Source of the DNA: Sulfitobacter noctilucae
GTDB taxonomy: Bacteria > Pseudomonadota > Alphaproteobacteria > Rhodobacterales > Rhodobacteraceae
Direction: 5' to 3'
Assembly (NCBI RefSeq): GCF_000622365.1
Contig: NZ_JASC01000003.1
Span: 62,001 to 126,000, forward strand
Length of the DNA: 64,000 nucleotides
A program made the position numbers and the translations under genes. Below are positions 31,715 through 63,318 of the stretch, one piece after another. The number at the start of each line of letters is the position of its first letter. The stretch's first letter is position 1. Under the pieces are notes generated by a model, which saw only the letters and a program-made list of their open reading frames with translations, ran no database searches and was not told the origin of the DNA.

Positions 31715-32380
31715 ATGAAGTGGAACCTGCCCAATATCCTTACGCTGTTGCGTCTGATCGCAGCCCCGATGGTGGCAGTCATGTTTCTCTATTTTACGCG
31801 GCCTTATGCGGATTGGTTTGCCTTACTGTTGTTCGTCTCTGCCGCTGTGACCGATTGGTTTGATGGCTATCTGGCGCGGGCCTGGAAGCAGGAAACCAAG
31901 CTGGGGGCCATGTTGGATCCGATTGCGGACAAAGCCATGGTGGTGATTGCGCTGATGGTGATCATCGGCTTTTCCAGCTGGTCGCCCTGGTTGGTCCTGC
32001 CCGCGACTGTCATCCTGTTTCGCGAGGTTTTCGTTTCAGGGCTGCGCGAATTTCTAGGCGATGTGGCAGGCACGTTGAAAGTGACAGCTTTGGCCAAGTG
32101 GAAGACCACCTTCCAGATGACGGCAATTGCCGTCTTGTTCAGTCACGGGGTGTTCGAGCATTATCTGGGTATGTCAGTATTTGGAATGGACGAAGAGTTG
32201 ATCGGCGCGATCCTGAGCGGGGCGGAGGAGGATGTTCTCGGTCTGGGGTGGAAGCTGACGGGCATGGAATGGGCCGGACGTATCGGGCTTGCGCTGTTGT
32301 GGATTGCAGCGGCTTTGACTGCGATCACCGGTCTGGATTACTGGTTCAAGGCATTGCCGCATGTGCGGGAGGGGCGTTGA
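31715..32380 (+). CDS. pgsA: CDP-diacylglycerol--glycerol-3-phosphate 3-phosphatidyltransferase
   Basis: A 221-residue inner-membrane enzyme making phosphatidylglycerol phosphate. The CDP-alcohol phosphotransferase motif DGYLAR-x8-G-x3-D-x3-D is intact (DWFDGYLARAWKQ then GAMLDPIAD). It has about five helices. A loop of about 40 residues before the last helix makes it slightly longer than E. coli PgsA. The stop overlaps the moaD start (TGATG). Confidence 0.95.
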   Translation: MKWNLPNILTLLRLIAAPMVAVMFLYFTRPYADWFALLLFVSAAVTDWFDGYLARAWKQETKLGAMLDPIADKAMVVIALMVIIGFSSWSPWLVLPATVILFREVFVSGLREFLGDVAGTLKVTALAKWKTTFQMTAIAVLFSHGVFEHYLGMSVFGMDEELIGAILSGAEEDVLGLGWKLTGMEWAGRIGLALLWIAAALTAITGLDYWFKALPHVREGR

Positions 32381-32625
32381 TGGATATTCTTTATTTCGCA
32401 TGGGTACGGGAACGCATCGGCCTGCCGCGCGAAACGGTTGAAACGCAGGCCGGAACCGTTGCTGATCTGGTGGCGGAATTACGGAAACGGGAAGATCGTT
32501 ATGATCTGGCGTTCTCCGATCTGAGCGCCCTGCGCGTGGCGGTCGATCAAAAGCTCACCGATTTCGATGCGTCCTTGGCCGGTGCGCGCGAGGTGGCGTT
32601 CTTTCCACCGATGACAGGCGGATAG
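32380..32625 (+). CDS. moaD: Molybdopterin synthase small subunit MoaD
   Basis: An 81-residue ubiquitin-like sulfur carrier ending in the required Gly-Gly (PPMTGG). In its thiocarboxylate form it feeds sulfur to MoaE. The start overlaps the pgsA stop by one base, and moaE begins four bases after the stop. Confidence 0.94.
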   Translation: MDILYFAWVRERIGLPRETVETQAGTVADLVAELRKREDRYDLAFSDLSALRVAVDQKLTDFDASLAGAREVAFFPPMTGG

Positions 32626-32629
32626 GTTC

Positions 32630-33073
32630 TTGCGGATCTCGGTTCAGGAGAGCCCCTTTGATTTGGGCAAGGAAACCGCGGGTTTCTCTGCCGGGCGTAA
32701 GGATATGGGTGCCTTGGTGACCTTTACGGGCGTTGTGCGGGATTTGCCCGGCGACCCCTTGCAGGCGTTGGAAATCGAACATTACCCCGGCATGACCGAA
32801 GCCGCCCTGACCGAGATCGCCGAACAGGCGATGGCACGTTTCTCGCTGGGGGATGCATTGGTTATTCATCGCTACGGGCGGTTGGTACCGGGCGAGATGA
32901 TCATGATGGTTGCCACAGCGGCCCCCCATCGCAACGATGCTTTTGACGGCGCGGAATTCCTGATGGACTACCTGAAATCACGCGCACCATTCTGGAAGCG
33001 CGAAATTACGGCGACGGGAGCAGATTGGGTTGCCTCGAAAGCCGAAGACGAAGCCGCGTTGGACCGCTGGTAG
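32630..33073 (+). CDS. moaE: Molybdopterin synthase catalytic subunit MoaE
   Basis: A 147-residue subunit that converts cyclic pyranopterin monophosphate to molybdopterin together with MoaD. Seen are GALVTFTGVVRD, the LEIEHYPGMTE strand, HRYGRLVPGE, and the catalytic region KSRAPFWKRE. The start is TTG, chosen because the family N-terminus (RISVQ-x-PFD) begins exactly there. It ends only three bases from the converging gene. A Ser/Pro-free compact form, normal length. Confidence 0.94.
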   Translation: MRISVQESPFDLGKETAGFSAGRKDMGALVTFTGVVRDLPGDPLQALEIEHYPGMTEAALTEIAEQAMARFSLGDALVIHRYGRLVPGEMIMMVATAAPHRNDAFDGAEFLMDYLKSRAPFWKREITATGADWVASKAEDEAALDRW

Positions 33074-59289: not shown

Positions 59290-60171
59290 TTGGCACAAGA
59301 TCCCGATGTGAGCGATTTTCTCATTGCACCCGACCCGCAGGCGCCCCGGTTGACCCGGGCGGTAAGCGGGCAGGACGAGAATGGCAATGAAACGCAACTG
59401 CGCGTGGTCGAAGAACGGCCGCTGACCATCTTCCTCAACAGTCAGGAAATTGTCACCGCAATGACCATTGGGGACTATCCGGCCTATCTGGCGCTTGGCT
59501 TTCTGCGCAATCAGGGGATGTTGCGCGCGGATGATGATGTAACAGGCGTGGACTACGATGAAGAGCTTAAGACAGTTGTGGTGCGCACTGCCCGCGCCAC
59601 CGACTATGAAGACAAGATGAAGCGCAAGACGCGGACCTCCGGCTGTGCGGTCGGGACGGTCTTTGGCGATATGATGGAGGGGTTGGAAGGGCTGACCCTC
59701 CCGAATACGCCGGTGCACAGTTCTTGGCTTTATGCGCTGTCCGCGCGGATCAACCGCACGCCCTCTCTCTATCTAGAAGCAGGGGCCATTCATGGGACCA
59801 TTCTGTGCCAAGGCGACCGTGCTCTGGTCTATATGGAGGACGTAGGACGCCACAATGCAGTTGATAAAATCGCGGGCTGGCTGCTTTCCGAGGGTGTCTC
59901 GGCTGATGATAAAATTCTCTATACCACGGGCCGACTGACCTCTGAGATGGTGATCAAAACGGCAATGATGGGCATCCCCGTGTTGGCGTCACGCTCGGGG
60001 TTCACGGCATGGGGCGTCGAAATAGCCCAGCAAGTGGGTCTGACGCTGATCGGGCGAATGAAGGGCAAACGCTTTGTCTGTTTGAGCGGTGAGCAACGGT
60101 TGGTCCGCGATGCCGATCCCACACAGGTCGCGGATGAACCACGTCGCGCCGGGCGCAAGGGGGCGGTCTGA
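59290..60171 (+). CDS. fdhD: Formate dehydrogenase accessory sulfurtransferase FdhD with altered CxxC
   Basis: A 293-residue protein that passes sulfur from IscS to the Mo-bisPGD cofactor. Family segments are EERPLTIFLN, YMEDVGRHNAVDKIAGW and TTGRLTSEMV. E. coli FdhD carries a C121-x-x-C124 pair; here the site reads C119-A-V-G122, so the second Cys is missing. The start is TTG, supported by AAGGGGG eight bases before. The stop overlaps the mobA start (TGATG). Confidence 0.9.
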   Translation: MAQDPDVSDFLIAPDPQAPRLTRAVSGQDENGNETQLRVVEERPLTIFLNSQEIVTAMTIGDYPAYLALGFLRNQGMLRADDDVTGVDYDEELKTVVVRTARATDYEDKMKRKTRTSGCAVGTVFGDMMEGLEGLTLPNTPVHSSWLYALSARINRTPSLYLEAGAIHGTILCQGDRALVYMEDVGRHNAVDKIAGWLLSEGVSADDKILYTTGRLTSEMVIKTAMMGIPVLASRSGFTAWGVEIAQQVGLTLIGRMKGKRFVCLSGEQRLVRDADPTQVADEPRRAGRKGAV

Positions 60172-60773
60172 TGCAGCAGCCTTTAGGCGTCATTCTGGCC
60201 GGAGGGCAGGCCACGCGCATGGGCGGCGGCGACAAGGGGCTGTTGCAGCTTGGCGGCGAAACCCTGCTGCACCGCGTGATTGACCGGCTTGAACCGCAGG
60301 TGGCCGGGCTGGCCCTGAACGCCAATGGCGATGCGGCACGGTTCGAAGATTTTGGTCTGCCCGTGCTGCCAGATTCGATTGAGGGGTTTGCCGGACCGTT
60401 GGCAGGGGTATTGGCGGGGCTTGATTGGGCCGCGTCTCAAGGGGCCGAGAGTATTGTCACTGCGGCGGCGGACACCCCGTTTTTCCCTTGCGATCTGGTG
60501 CCGCAACTGCTGCTTGCAGGCGAAGTCATGACGCACCCGCTGGTCCTTGCCGCCACACCAGACACGGTGAGTGGCACAGCGCGGCACCCGACATTCGGAC
60601 TGTGGCCGGTGGCACTGCGTGATGATCTGCGCGAAGCATTGCAGCACGGTTTGCGCAAGGTGGTGATGTGGACGCAACAGCACGGCGGGCGCGAAGCCTT
60701 GTTTCCGCAAGAAGCAGCGTTTTTCAATGTGAACACCCCAGATGATCTGGCGCAAGCCGAGGGGATGTTATGA
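60171..60773 (+). CDS. mobA: Molybdenum cofactor guanylyltransferase MobA
   Basis: A 200-residue nucleotidyltransferase attaching GMP to molybdopterin. The N-terminal GTP-binding motif LAGGQATRMGGGDKGLLQLGG is canonical; TAAADTPFFP supplies the metal aspartate, and HPTFGLWP and NVNTPDDL complete the fold. It overlaps fdhD and mobB on either side, consistent with bis-MGD production for formate dehydrogenase or similar enzymes. Confidence 0.95.
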   Translation: MQQPLGVILAGGQATRMGGGDKGLLQLGGETLLHRVIDRLEPQVAGLALNANGDAARFEDFGLPVLPDSIEGFAGPLAGVLAGLDWAASQGAESIVTAAADTPFFPCDLVPQLLLAGEVMTHPLVLAATPDTVSGTARHPTFGLWPVALRDDLREALQHGLRKVVMWTQQHGGREALFPQEAAFFNVNTPDDLAQAEGML

Positions 60774-61261
60774 AGATTTACGGTGTCGTAGGCTGGAAGA
60801 ATGCCGGGAAAACAGGCTTGATGGAGCGTTTGGTGACAGAGATCACCGGTCGTGGCATCACCGTGTCGACGATCAAACATGCGCATCACACCTTTGATGT
60901 GGATCAGCCCGGCAAAGACAGCTTTCGCCACCGTACTGCCGGTGCGACCGAGGTTCTGCTGGCTTCCAAAACCCGCTTTGCCCTGATGCACGAACTGCGG
61001 GACGAGGAAGAGCCAGCGCTTGCTGATCTGTTGCAAAGGTTATCTCCCGTCGATCTGGTGCTGATTGAAGGTTATAAACGCGATGCGCATCCCAAGATCG
61101 AAGCGCATCGTGCGGTGACCGGCAATCCGCTGCTGGCCCCGGATGATCCATCGGTGCGGGCGGTGGCCAGTGATGTGCCGCTTGATTTGGACCGTCCGGT
61201 CTTGGATTTGAACAACACAGAACAAGTGGCTGGTTTCATTCTATCCGAGGTCGGGCTGTGA
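60770..61261 (+). CDS. mobB: Molybdopterin-guanine dinucleotide biosynthesis adapter MobB
   Basis: A 163-residue P-loop GTPase with Walker A GWKNAGKTGLMERL, then TIKHAHHTFDVDQPGKDSFRH and the VLIEGYKRDAHPKIE segment typical of MobB. It enhances MobA activity. Its TGA overlaps the GTG start of the moeA fusion. Confidence 0.94.
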   Translation: MKIYGVVGWKNAGKTGLMERLVTEITGRGITVSTIKHAHHTFDVDQPGKDSFRHRTAGATEVLLASKTRFALMHELRDEEEPALADLLQRLSPVDLVLIEGYKRDAHPKIEAHRAVTGNPLLAPDDPSVRAVASDVPLDLDRPVLDLNNTEQVAGFILSEVGL

Positions 61262-63318
61262 GGGGCTTTGACACCATCGTTATGGTTGATTGGTCAAGCG
61301 GCAATGATACCGGTCCGCGTCCGCGGAAAGATGCGATCTGGGCCGCAGTAAACCGCAACGGCGCCGCGGAGGCACCGGTGTATCTGCGCAATCGATTGAT
61401 GGCAGAGGAATGGCTGACCGCGCTTTTTGACCAGGAACGCGCGGCGGGACGGCGGGTGCTGGCGGGTTTCGATTTTCCTTTTGGATATCCCAAAGGATTT
61501 GCCGCTGCGCTGACCGGATCAGCGGACCCGCTGACTGTTTGGGACTGGTTTGAAGCGCGGGTGGAAGACACGCCCAAACACAACAACCGGTTTGATTTGG
61601 CTGGACAGGTCAATCTGGCGCTGGGAGGAGGCAAAGGCCCCTTTTGGTTCAATGGTTTGCAGCGCGATATAAACGGGCTGGCGCGGCGCAAGGACGAATA
61701 TAGCAACCCTTTCCCAGACAAACGACAAAGTGAGCAGCGTACCAAAGGCGCGTTTACCTGTTGGCAGATGGGGGGCGCGGGTGCCGTTGGGGGGCAGGTC
61801 TTTACAGGTTTGCCGATTTTAGCCCGGCTTCGGCGCAAATATGACGCGGCGGTTTGGCCATTCATGGCTTTGGACAAAGACATCGCGCTGGTGGAAATAT
61901 GGCCATCACTGACGGTGGGGCCGGCACCGGACGATCAAATCAAGGACGCCTGGCAGGTGCAGGAAGTTGCGCGACAAATTGCAGCTCTTCCTGAGGACCG
62001 GCTGGCTGAAATGCTCACGGTGGACGCCCCGGAAGAAGGCTGGATTTTCGGCTTGGGCTATGAGGCAGAACTGAAAGCACCCGTCTTGCAGAACGATTGT
62101 TTCGCCCTGCCGCCCGGTGTGCATTGGACCCCGGTAGATGAAGCATTGGCGCTTTTGCAGGGTCGTCTGGCGCCGGTTTGCGGGGTAGAGACTTTGCCGC
62201 TTGGTCAGGCTGCTGGCCGTCTTCTGGCCGAAGACGTGGAGGCGCAGCGCGCCAATCCGCCGCTGCCCAATACGGCAGTGGATGGCTACGGCTTTGCCGG
62301 TGGGCGGGGCGCGGGTGCGCATGATCTCCCACTGGTCAAAGGCCGTGCTGCAGCCGGGGATGCGCCTGTCGTGGTGCCGTCGGACCATGCCATCCGCGTC
62401 CTGACGGGGGCTGCTCTGCCCGAGGGAGTGGACACCGTCATCTTGCAAGAAGATGTGAAGGTCGACGCTGATCGTTTGCTATTTACGGGCCCGATCAAGC
62501 AGGGGGCCAACACGCGCAAGGCTGGTGAGGATGTCGATGCGGGGGAGGTCTTGTTGCATGCGGGGCGAAGGCTGACACCGGCGGATCTCGCCCTCGGTGC
62601 GGCCACGGGGAATGACCATATTAGTGTGCGCAAGCATCTGCGGGTTGGTGTGCTGTCAACAGGGGATGAGCTTGTTGATCCGGGGACGCCTGCCAAAGAT
62701 GGTCAGATTTACGATGCCAACCGCCCGATGCTGTTATCGTTGATTGCCCAGTTCGGTCATGCCCCTGTCGATCTGGGCCGTGTCCAAGATGACCGGTCCG
62801 CGCTGCGCGATGTATTGGATCAGGCTGTGCCACAAGCCGATGTCATCCTGACCAGTGGCGGCGCATCGGCGGGGGATGAAGATCACGTCTCGGCCTTGCT
62901 GCAAGAGGCAGGAGCAATGGACTTATGGCGGATTGCGGTCAAACCGGGGCGGCCTTTGGCGCTTGGGATGTGGCAGGGAAAGCCGGTCTTCGGGCTGCCG
63001 GGTAACCCTGTTGCCGCGCTCGTATGCGCTTTGATCTTTGCGCGACCGGCGCTTGAGGTGCTGGCGGGAGGGCACTGGCGCGCGCCGCAAGCGTTCAATG
63101 TACCAGCGGCATTCACCAAGTCCAAGAAGGCCGGGCGGCGCGAATATCTGCGCGCAAGGATGAAAGACGGCGCGGCAGAAGTGTTCGGCTCTGAAGGGTC
63201 GGGCAGGATCAGCGGGCTATCCTGGGCCGAAGGGCTGGTCGAATTGCCCGAACCGGCCATGCAGGTTGCACCCGGCGATCCGGTCCGGTTCATTCCTTAC
63301 GCGAGCTTCGGACTTTAG
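61258..63318 (+). CDS. moeA: Molybdopterin molybdotransferase MoeA fused to an N-terminal RNase H-like domain
   Basis: A 686-residue protein. Residues about 291-686 are a full MoeA/Glp: NTAVDGYGF, LTGAALPEGVDTVI, GVLSTGDELV, LTSGGASAGDEDHV and the KPGRPLALG loop, which inserts molybdate into adenylylated molybdopterin. Residues 1-290 are extra. They start IVMVDWSSG with D11, have a second acidic strand GFDFPFGYPKG (D72) and further aromatic-rich loops, a layout like RNase H-fold DUF429-type domains. The GTG start overlaps mobB. The extra domain's function is unknown. It may be a regulatory or nuclease-like module acquired by fusion. Confidence 0.9.
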   Translation: MRGFDTIVMVDWSSGNDTGPRPRKDAIWAAVNRNGAAEAPVYLRNRLMAEEWLTALFDQERAAGRRVLAGFDFPFGYPKGFAAALTGSADPLTVWDWFEARVEDTPKHNNRFDLAGQVNLALGGGKGPFWFNGLQRDINGLARRKDEYSNPFPDKRQSEQRTKGAFTCWQMGGAGAVGGQVFTGLPILARLRRKYDAAVWPFMALDKDIALVEIWPSLTVGPAPDDQIKDAWQVQEVARQIAALPEDRLAEMLTVDAPEEGWIFGLGYEAELKAPVLQNDCFALPPGVHWTPVDEALALLQGRLAPVCGVETLPLGQAAGRLLAEDVEAQRANPPLPNTAVDGYGFAGGRGAGAHDLPLVKGRAAAGDAPVVVPSDHAIRVLTGAALPEGVDTVILQEDVKVDADRLLFTGPIKQGANTRKAGEDVDAGEVLLHAGRRLTPADLALGAATGNDHISVRKHLRVGVLSTGDELVDPGTPAKDGQIYDANRPMLLSLIAQFGHAPVDLGRVQDDRSALRDVLDQAVPQADVILTSGGASAGDEDHVSALLQEAGAMDLWRIAVKPGRPLALGMWQGKPVFGLPGNPVAALVCALIFARPALEVLAGGHWRAPQAFNVPAAFTKSKKAGRREYLRARMKDGAAEVFGSEGSGRISGLSWAEGLVELPEPAMQVAPGDPVRFIPYASFGL

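Follow-up and report, generated by a model that had tools for sequence, protein, structure and literature searches.

What does a domain resembling RNase H do when it is joined to MoeA, an insertase of molybdenum cofactor (Moco) synthesis? This question is raised by one gene of Sulfitobacter noctilucae, which we examined in a stretch of 64,000 nucleotides (the window; NCBI RefSeq assembly GCF_000622365.1, contig NZ_JASC01000003.1, positions 62,001 to 126,000). The open reading frame runs on the forward strand from a GTG start at 61258 to a stop codon ending at 63318, without any interruption, and encodes 686 residues. It is the last gene after fdhD, mobA and mobB, which all lie on the same strand. 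A preliminary description of this DNA had reported an additional segment ahead of a complete MoeA, and this fusion is real, since the same joint frame occurs in 45 of the 90 loci fetched from the Rhodobacteraceae (hereafter the family), which rules out a frameshift or an annotation artefact. Our computations establish that an RNase H-like domain whose acidic residues follow a conserved pattern is joined here to a second, MobB-linked MoeA in an fdhD-mobA-mobB operon, and that the same domain is elsewhere fused to MobB or to CobH.

The protein can be divided into three parts. The RNase H-like domain occupies residues 1-272 (61258..62073, forward strand), as delimited by the AlphaFold2 (AF2) model, the match to the NCBI model NF011066 and the alignment. 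Its end was placed near residue 272 (base 62073), where stand-alone copies cease matching (profile positions 271-279); the segment 61258-62127 that had been proposed as the domain does contain it, but it also takes in about 18 residues of linker. This linker (residues 273-291; 62074..62130, forward strand) is conserved around NDCFALPPGVHW, with C281, F282, A283, P285, G287 and W290 invariant in 37 aligned fusions, and it is predicted to be flexible, residues 271-290 having a predicted local distance difference test score (pLDDT) of about 55 in the model of the whole fusion. That model, built from 37 of the 45 fusion loci, has a predicted template modelling score (pTM) of 0.60, and this low value may be due solely to MoeA having been modelled as a monomer. 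The remainder is a complete MoeA (domains I-IV) of the MobB-linked type (62131..63318, forward strand), in which the Pfam families MoeA_N, MoCF_biosynth and MoeA_C follow each other at residues 292-680, each over its cut-off.

We will first consider the fold. The AF2 model of residues 1-289, based on a 71-sequence alignment, has a mean pLDDT of 95.5 and a pTM of 0.92. Its elements are strand 1 (6-11), strand 2 (27-33), strand 3 (41-43), helix A (46-62) and strand 4 (67-71), then a long and largely helical insert made of several helices, and finally helix B (177-195), strand 5 (209-213) and helix C (229-242). Leaving the insert aside, this is the RNase H order b1-b2-b3-aA-b4-aB-b5-aC. When the 1000 best Foldseek chains were re-aligned to the model, 63 of 999 reached a Z of 5 or more, with a top value of 7.0. 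Nearly all of the 50 matches listed are proteins that we take to be RNase H-like (RuvC, Tex, Spt6, Cas9, Cas12, a terminase nuclease, YqgF, domain II of MutS), and one is presumably GspL. Because the Z scores are middling (5-7), the assignment leans jointly on the order of the strands, the positions of the conserved residues and the consistency of this list, and together these support, at the level of a model, the RNase H-like fold that had been proposed for the segment.

The family assignment is another matter. The preliminary description had likened the segment to DUF429 (PF04250) on the strength of the motifs VMVDWSSG and GFDFPFGYP, which are indeed present at residues 8-15 and 70-78. DUF429 itself had to be given up: Pfam returned no family at all for residues 1-289 at E values up to 10, and against 13 DUF429 sequences hhalign gave a probability of 4.7 and a pairwise E of 0.0086 over 44 columns. 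The two share a general fold class, DUF429 being placed in clade D of the RNase H-like superfamily in Majorek 2014 (PMC3985635), and by eye they are alike in a strand with ExxP[ES]L and in an acidic last helix, but our domain is longer and carries the helical insert. The actual match is found in NCBI's model of a MobB fusion, NF011066/PRK14495, positions 166-448 of which align with residues 3-273 (E=1.7e-57, 195.4 bits). By this match the domain is the half labelled "unknown domain" in PRK14495, and three fusions of MobB to the domain were found in the family. The cut-off for the whole protein (596 bits) is missed here, MobB being a separate open reading frame in the window and the domain being joined to MoeA instead. 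No credible solved relative was found by sequence, either for the domain or for DUF429, and no viral structural relative was found below E 0.001. Among the results listed by our literature searches over open-licence full texts there was no paper on the domain, which may have been described in print elsewhere.

If the fold is that of RNase H, acidic residues are expected at the ends of the core strands and at the start of the last helix, and this is where they are found in the model. Four of them are putative metal ligands, each in an invariant column of the alignment and all encoded on the forward strand: D11 at the end of strand 1 (61288..61290), D72 just past strand 4 (61471..61473), E213 at the end of strand 5 (61894..61896) and D230 at the start of the C-terminal helix (61945..61947). 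The 71-row alignment (71 of 91 domain pieces) has D11, W12, S13, D72, P78, R156, Q180, E213, D230, E260 and others as invariant positions. In a larger comparison (the tree and the residue counts use 147 of the 150 loci, L281, L287 and L293 being too partial), D72, E213, D230, R156 and Q180 are present without exception in the 129 rows, which comprise 75 rows from Moco contexts, 21 from cobalamin contexts and 33 others. D11 is kept in all but two rows, which have a gap, R46 in all save one isoleucine and one gap, and E260 in all save one alanine and one gap. As the acidic residues are the same in the three kinds of rows, the site does not vary with the partner. The domain of the window is itself acidic (isoelectric point 4.97, net charge -7), which judging from composition is unlike a typical binder of long nucleic acids.

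The MoeA half can be placed more precisely. The source genome holds another MoeA (locus L123, 7188-8360; MoeA_N 135.5 bits), and the open reading frame directly 5' of it is one that we take to be moaC; a third MoeA_N match of this genome stays under the cut-off. In the fusion the oxyanion pocket (Arg565 to Ala586; 62950..63015, forward strand; residue roles after PMC13197769) has an arginine and an alanine 21 residues apart, whereas the other MoeA has a lysine and a serine. This difference recurs in the family MoeAs examined: the Arg/Ala pair is found in 53/53 MoeAs at loci with the domain and in 18/18 MobB-linked MoeAs at loci without it, that is in 71/71 MobB-linked enzymes, while Lys/Ser is found in all 29 separate MoeAs examined (29 of the 30 loci fetched, L374 being a fragment). 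The 18 regions without the domain were selected, in 12 cases for the length of the MobB frame and in most of the others because that genome carries the domain at another site. MobB is fused directly to MoeA in 12 of the 18, a count from which no rate can be drawn, 11 of these 12 having been picked for the long frame; in these direct fusions (L327-L338) the pocket is Arg/Ala in 12/12. More distant MoeA-like matches in genomes G003, G017, G019, G030 and others were left out of this comparison, and they suggest a third MoeA paralogue in some members of the family, which may have another pocket.

This pocket has a precedent. In a study of Methylorubrum extorquens, MoeA1 is reported to have Arg291 and Ala312 where other MoeAs have Lys and Ser; moeA1, mobB and fdhD are required for a tungsten formate dehydrogenase and moeA2 for molybdenum enzymes, and a contact between MobB and MoeA1 was obtained by two-hybrid and modelling (PMC13197769). 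The fusion shows the two traits of the MoeA1 type, Arg/Ala in place of Lys/Ser and linkage to mobB, with equal spacing of the pair, the likeness being drawn from the published residues and not from aligned sequences. Like that platform the window has an extra, MobB-linked MoeA, and here fdhD and mobA belong to the same operon; the main text of PMC13197769 uses neither the term "unknown domain" nor "RNase H". The source genome does have a formate dehydrogenase alpha subunit that scores over its family cut-off. Among the NCBIfam models, the MoeA half scores best with the MobB-MoeA fusion PRK14491/NF011060 (403.8 bits, under the whole-protein cut-off of 532; residues 277-683, including part of the linker). 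Direct fusions of this kind exist in the family, but in them no RNase H-like domain separates MobB from MoeA. The gephyrin-like Glp model NF045515 gives 263.6 bits and its cut-off of 475 is missed; three of the six matching plasmid records (H4-H6) nonetheless name the gene gephyrin-like Glp. From its sequence, the fusion is best read as an insertase of the MobB branch which carries an extra domain between MobB and MoeA.

How widespread is this domain, and with which genes does it travel? The profile searches covered the window's own phylum, and a single pattern scan reached further. The domain is present in 92 of 149 sampled family genomes, in 83 of 385 genomes of the class Alphaproteobacteria (including a distant group considered below) and in 31 of 299 genomes of the phylum, two of which lie outside the class (E about 1e-21). 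In the pattern scan 66 of the 80 best-scoring named loci are fused, among them those of Sulfitobacter litoralis DSM 17584 and Ruegeria denitrificans CECT 5091 (L157 and L168); as there are at least 554 relatives, these top 80 are biased to close ones. Two full-length copies are never seen in one family genome: the additional matches of G005 and G105 overlap or adjoin the first. At class level a further, distant copy turns up in G344 (L281), and G208 shows a further match that is partial.

Family loci were fetched for 90 of the 92 matching genomes, the fragmentary G028 and G102 being left out. The domain is fused to MoeA in 45 of them, separate from moeA in the same mob cluster in 7, preceded by mobA and mobB in 6 and by mobA in 14, and fused to MobB in 3; it is fused to CobH in 7 more, lies in a cobalamin cluster beside cobH in 1, and has none of the panel genes around it in the last 7. 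The 39 strong loci outside the family comprise 5 CobH fusions, 5 cobalamin clusters with a separate cobH, 2 copies directly 3' of cobU, 1 copy after a gene of the CobB/CobQ type, 1 fusion to HyuA and 25 loci with none of the panel. The neighbours were identified with 16 query proteins and 20 Pfam-scanned neighbours of selected loci, so that "none of the panel" does not mean that no cofactor gene is present; among the 25, L272 shows a match to fdhD on the opposite strand. Of the 12 CobH fusions, 6 are confirmed by a Pfam CbiC match (E 3.5e-63 or better), and the other 6 were identified by blastp. At L116 (G009:C3) the MoeA part of the fusion and the adjacent fdhD are each split across two frames, through sequencing errors or decay. 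At 14 of the 23 loci of the mobA-domain, mobA-mobB-domain and MobB-fusion types (for instance L061), the next gene after the domain matches a GNAT acetyltransferase. The HyuA fusion (L235:3240-6674), a single case, has the domain in one open frame with a complete hydantoinase/oxoprolinase A.

A cluster or fusion with Moco or cobalamin genes is thus found at 83/90 family loci and at 13/39 strong loci outside. The preliminary description had seen in the fusion a new link in Moco synthesis, and the link itself stands: stand-alone copies cluster with mobA, mobB or moeA at 27 of the 90 family loci, including the 7 where the domain is a separate gene in one mob cluster with moeA, an arrangement it had proposed to look for. 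The restriction to Moco does not hold. Outside the family the 13 loci are all cobalamin ones and 0/39 match mobA, mobB or moeA; the CobH fusions rule out a function in Moco synthesis only, and since the domain serves or travels with both sets of genes, the proposed link is too narrow. Eight family genomes have the domain in a cobalamin cluster, and in six of them MobB is encoded elsewhere, in a fetched region (L338-L343) that holds an Arg/Ala MoeA; these genomes show no second copy of the domain. Together with the constant acidic site and the flexible linker, this agrees better with an accessory role serving both pathways than with a regulator confined to Moco synthesis. Mapped on the domain tree, the Moco and cobalamin labels (96 tips) need two switches from one to the other; with all four labels included the number of changes is 18, whereas 200 shuffles gave 64 on average and never fewer than 57. 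This tree is a FastTree build in which several nodes are weakly supported, including some that bear on the changes between Moco and cobalamin. Judging by this phylogeny, we read the cobalamin link as spread through the class and the Moco link as peculiar to the family, with at least one reversion.

The distant group (L273-L293; 21 of the weak class matches were fetched, a subset) belongs to the same class and is homologous to the domain by profile (E=4.3e-37, probability 99.9). D11, D72, E213, R46 and R156 are kept in 18/18 of its rows, L286 and L291 being counted among them. It differs in its neighbourhood, a DegQ-RarA-CrcB-RluC cluster in 17/21 fetched loci, and in having D230 aligned in 8/18 rows and Q180 in 0/18, two counts that depend on the alignment. 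Ten of its proteins were tested against Pfam and no family was found, DUF429 included.

The best explanation that we can propose, and we favor it tentatively, at less than even odds, is that the domain is a predicted metal-dependent hydrolase shared by the two pathways and tethered here to the insertase of the formate dehydrogenase branch. By analogy with M. extorquens, the MoeA of the window would form with MobB, MobA and FdhD a dedicated late pathway for a formate dehydrogenase that uses the bis-molybdopterin guanine dinucleotide cofactor, which might favor tungsten, and the other MoeA would serve the general insertion of molybdenum. The domain would be an Mg- or Mn-dependent hydrolase of a phosphoester or phosphoanhydride bond. 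Its substrate could be a small molecule of nucleotide type that occurs late in both Moco and cobalamin synthesis, for instance an intermediate that has been adenylated or guanylated, a dinucleotide cofactor that was wrongly made, or a side product of nucleotidyl transfer. Being flexible, the linker would hold this activity close to the insertase. Both pathways contain nucleotidyl-transfer steps, and the idea of a shared substrate is supported by the fusions to CobH and MobB and by the adjacency to CobU and to CobB-type genes. The domain would in any case be accessory, because related genomes have MobB and MoeA, even directly fused, without the domain at that locus. The wider proposal, that one RNase H-fold enzyme acts on a shared small substrate of the Mo/W cofactor and vitamin B12 pathways and has been fused separately to the insertase, MobB or CobH, would make the domain a new class of enzyme in cofactor assembly, with a role away from nucleic acids; it is attractive and, in our estimate, unlikely.

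Several observations weigh against the proposed hydrolase and its setting. Foldseek gave no match below E 0.001 for the domain model in the PDB, and the top structural Z falls in the range that the alignment tool flags as doubtful. CobH itself is not known to use a nucleotide, so the idea of a shared nucleotide rests on pathway membership. Moco and cobalamin panel genes are lacking at 32 of the 129 strong loci (7/90 in the family and 25/39 outside, the HyuA fusion being counted apart), where MutY, amidohydrolases, glutamine synthetase and alcohol dehydrogenases are among the neighbours that were tested. Over the 149 genomes the presence of the domain shows no association with that of CobH (p=0.47) and a weak one with that of MobB (p=0.037). 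The members are not uniformly acidic, the isoelectric points of 88 rows (88 of the 91 domain pieces) ranging from 4.9 to 9.1 (5th-95th percentile) with a median of 5.8. As for tungsten, the MoeA of the window may possibly prefer it, an extrapolation from one study (PMC13197769).

Three other explanations have to be weighed. The domain could be an adaptor, a docking module that joins MobB to MoeA, or CobH to its neighbours, and whose acidic site is structural. We regard it as a serious rival, close behind the hydrolase in probability: in the operon the domain stands between MobB and MoeA, and fusions to each of them occur, MobB and MoeA1 are reported to be in contact (PMC13197769), and where the domain is missing MobB can be joined to MoeA directly, as in the 12 regions mentioned above, chosen as they mostly were for a long frame. 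An adaptor whose partners shift would, however, have no need of an acidic pattern that stays unchanged across them; moreover, the linker is flexible, and stand-alone copies are found with no insertase close by. Alternatively, the domain could be a housekeeping gene of unrelated function which moves between operons and has been fused by the way. This hitchhiking would account for the unrelated contexts, mostly outside the family, for the one full-length copy per family genome and for the weak co-occurrence with pathway genes, and it is kept alive because about two thirds of the strong outside loci have no recognised cofactor gene and their neighbours are varied. It sits poorly with the share of loci tied to Moco or cobalamin genes, especially in the family, and with fusions to three different enzymes from two cofactor pathways, so that we hold it to be quite unlikely.

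The least probable of the three is a nuclease or a regulator acting at the RNA level, which would cut nucleic acid, for example the transcripts of cofactor genes. The fold would suit it, RuvC, Tex, Spt6, Cas9, Cas12 and the like being among the listed structural matches, as would the basic charge of some members (isoelectric point up to about 9); yet the domain of the window and the median member are acidic, strand 4 is separated from the following core helix by the long, largely helical insert, and the repeated fusions are to biosynthetic enzymes. A riboswitch link was also rejected: in a search of the window and eight loci, neither a cobalamin or Moco riboswitch nor any other Rfam element reached its gathering threshold.

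The genes ahead of the fusion are all on the forward strand. fdhD (59290..60171), encoding the sulfurtransferase for formate dehydrogenase, matches Pfam FdhD-NarQ over the cut-off (1.1e-73) and falls slightly under the cut-off of the NCBIfam equivalog TIGR00129 (137.8 for 140.9). mobA (60171..60773), the molybdenum cofactor guanylyltransferase gene, reaches 197.5 bits with TIGR02665 (cut-off 151.85), and mobB (60770..61261; Pfam MobB 3.7e-50) shares its last 4 bases with the GTG start of the fusion. Elsewhere in the window (32380-33073), two open reading frames that we take to be moaD-like (ending FFPPMTGG) and moaE-like lie 3' of presumably uvrC-like and pgsA-like genes; they would be further Moco genes within the same window.

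What does this mean for the family? If the domain is an enzyme, it would represent an unrecognised step common to two highly elaborate cofactor pathways, and an RNase H fold employed outside nucleic acids. Independently of this, the split between Arg/Ala and Lys/Ser pockets provides a simple sequence test for the MoeA paralogue of the MobB branch, probably that of formate dehydrogenase, in the family, and this test may aid the engineering of tungsten or molybdenum formate dehydrogenases.

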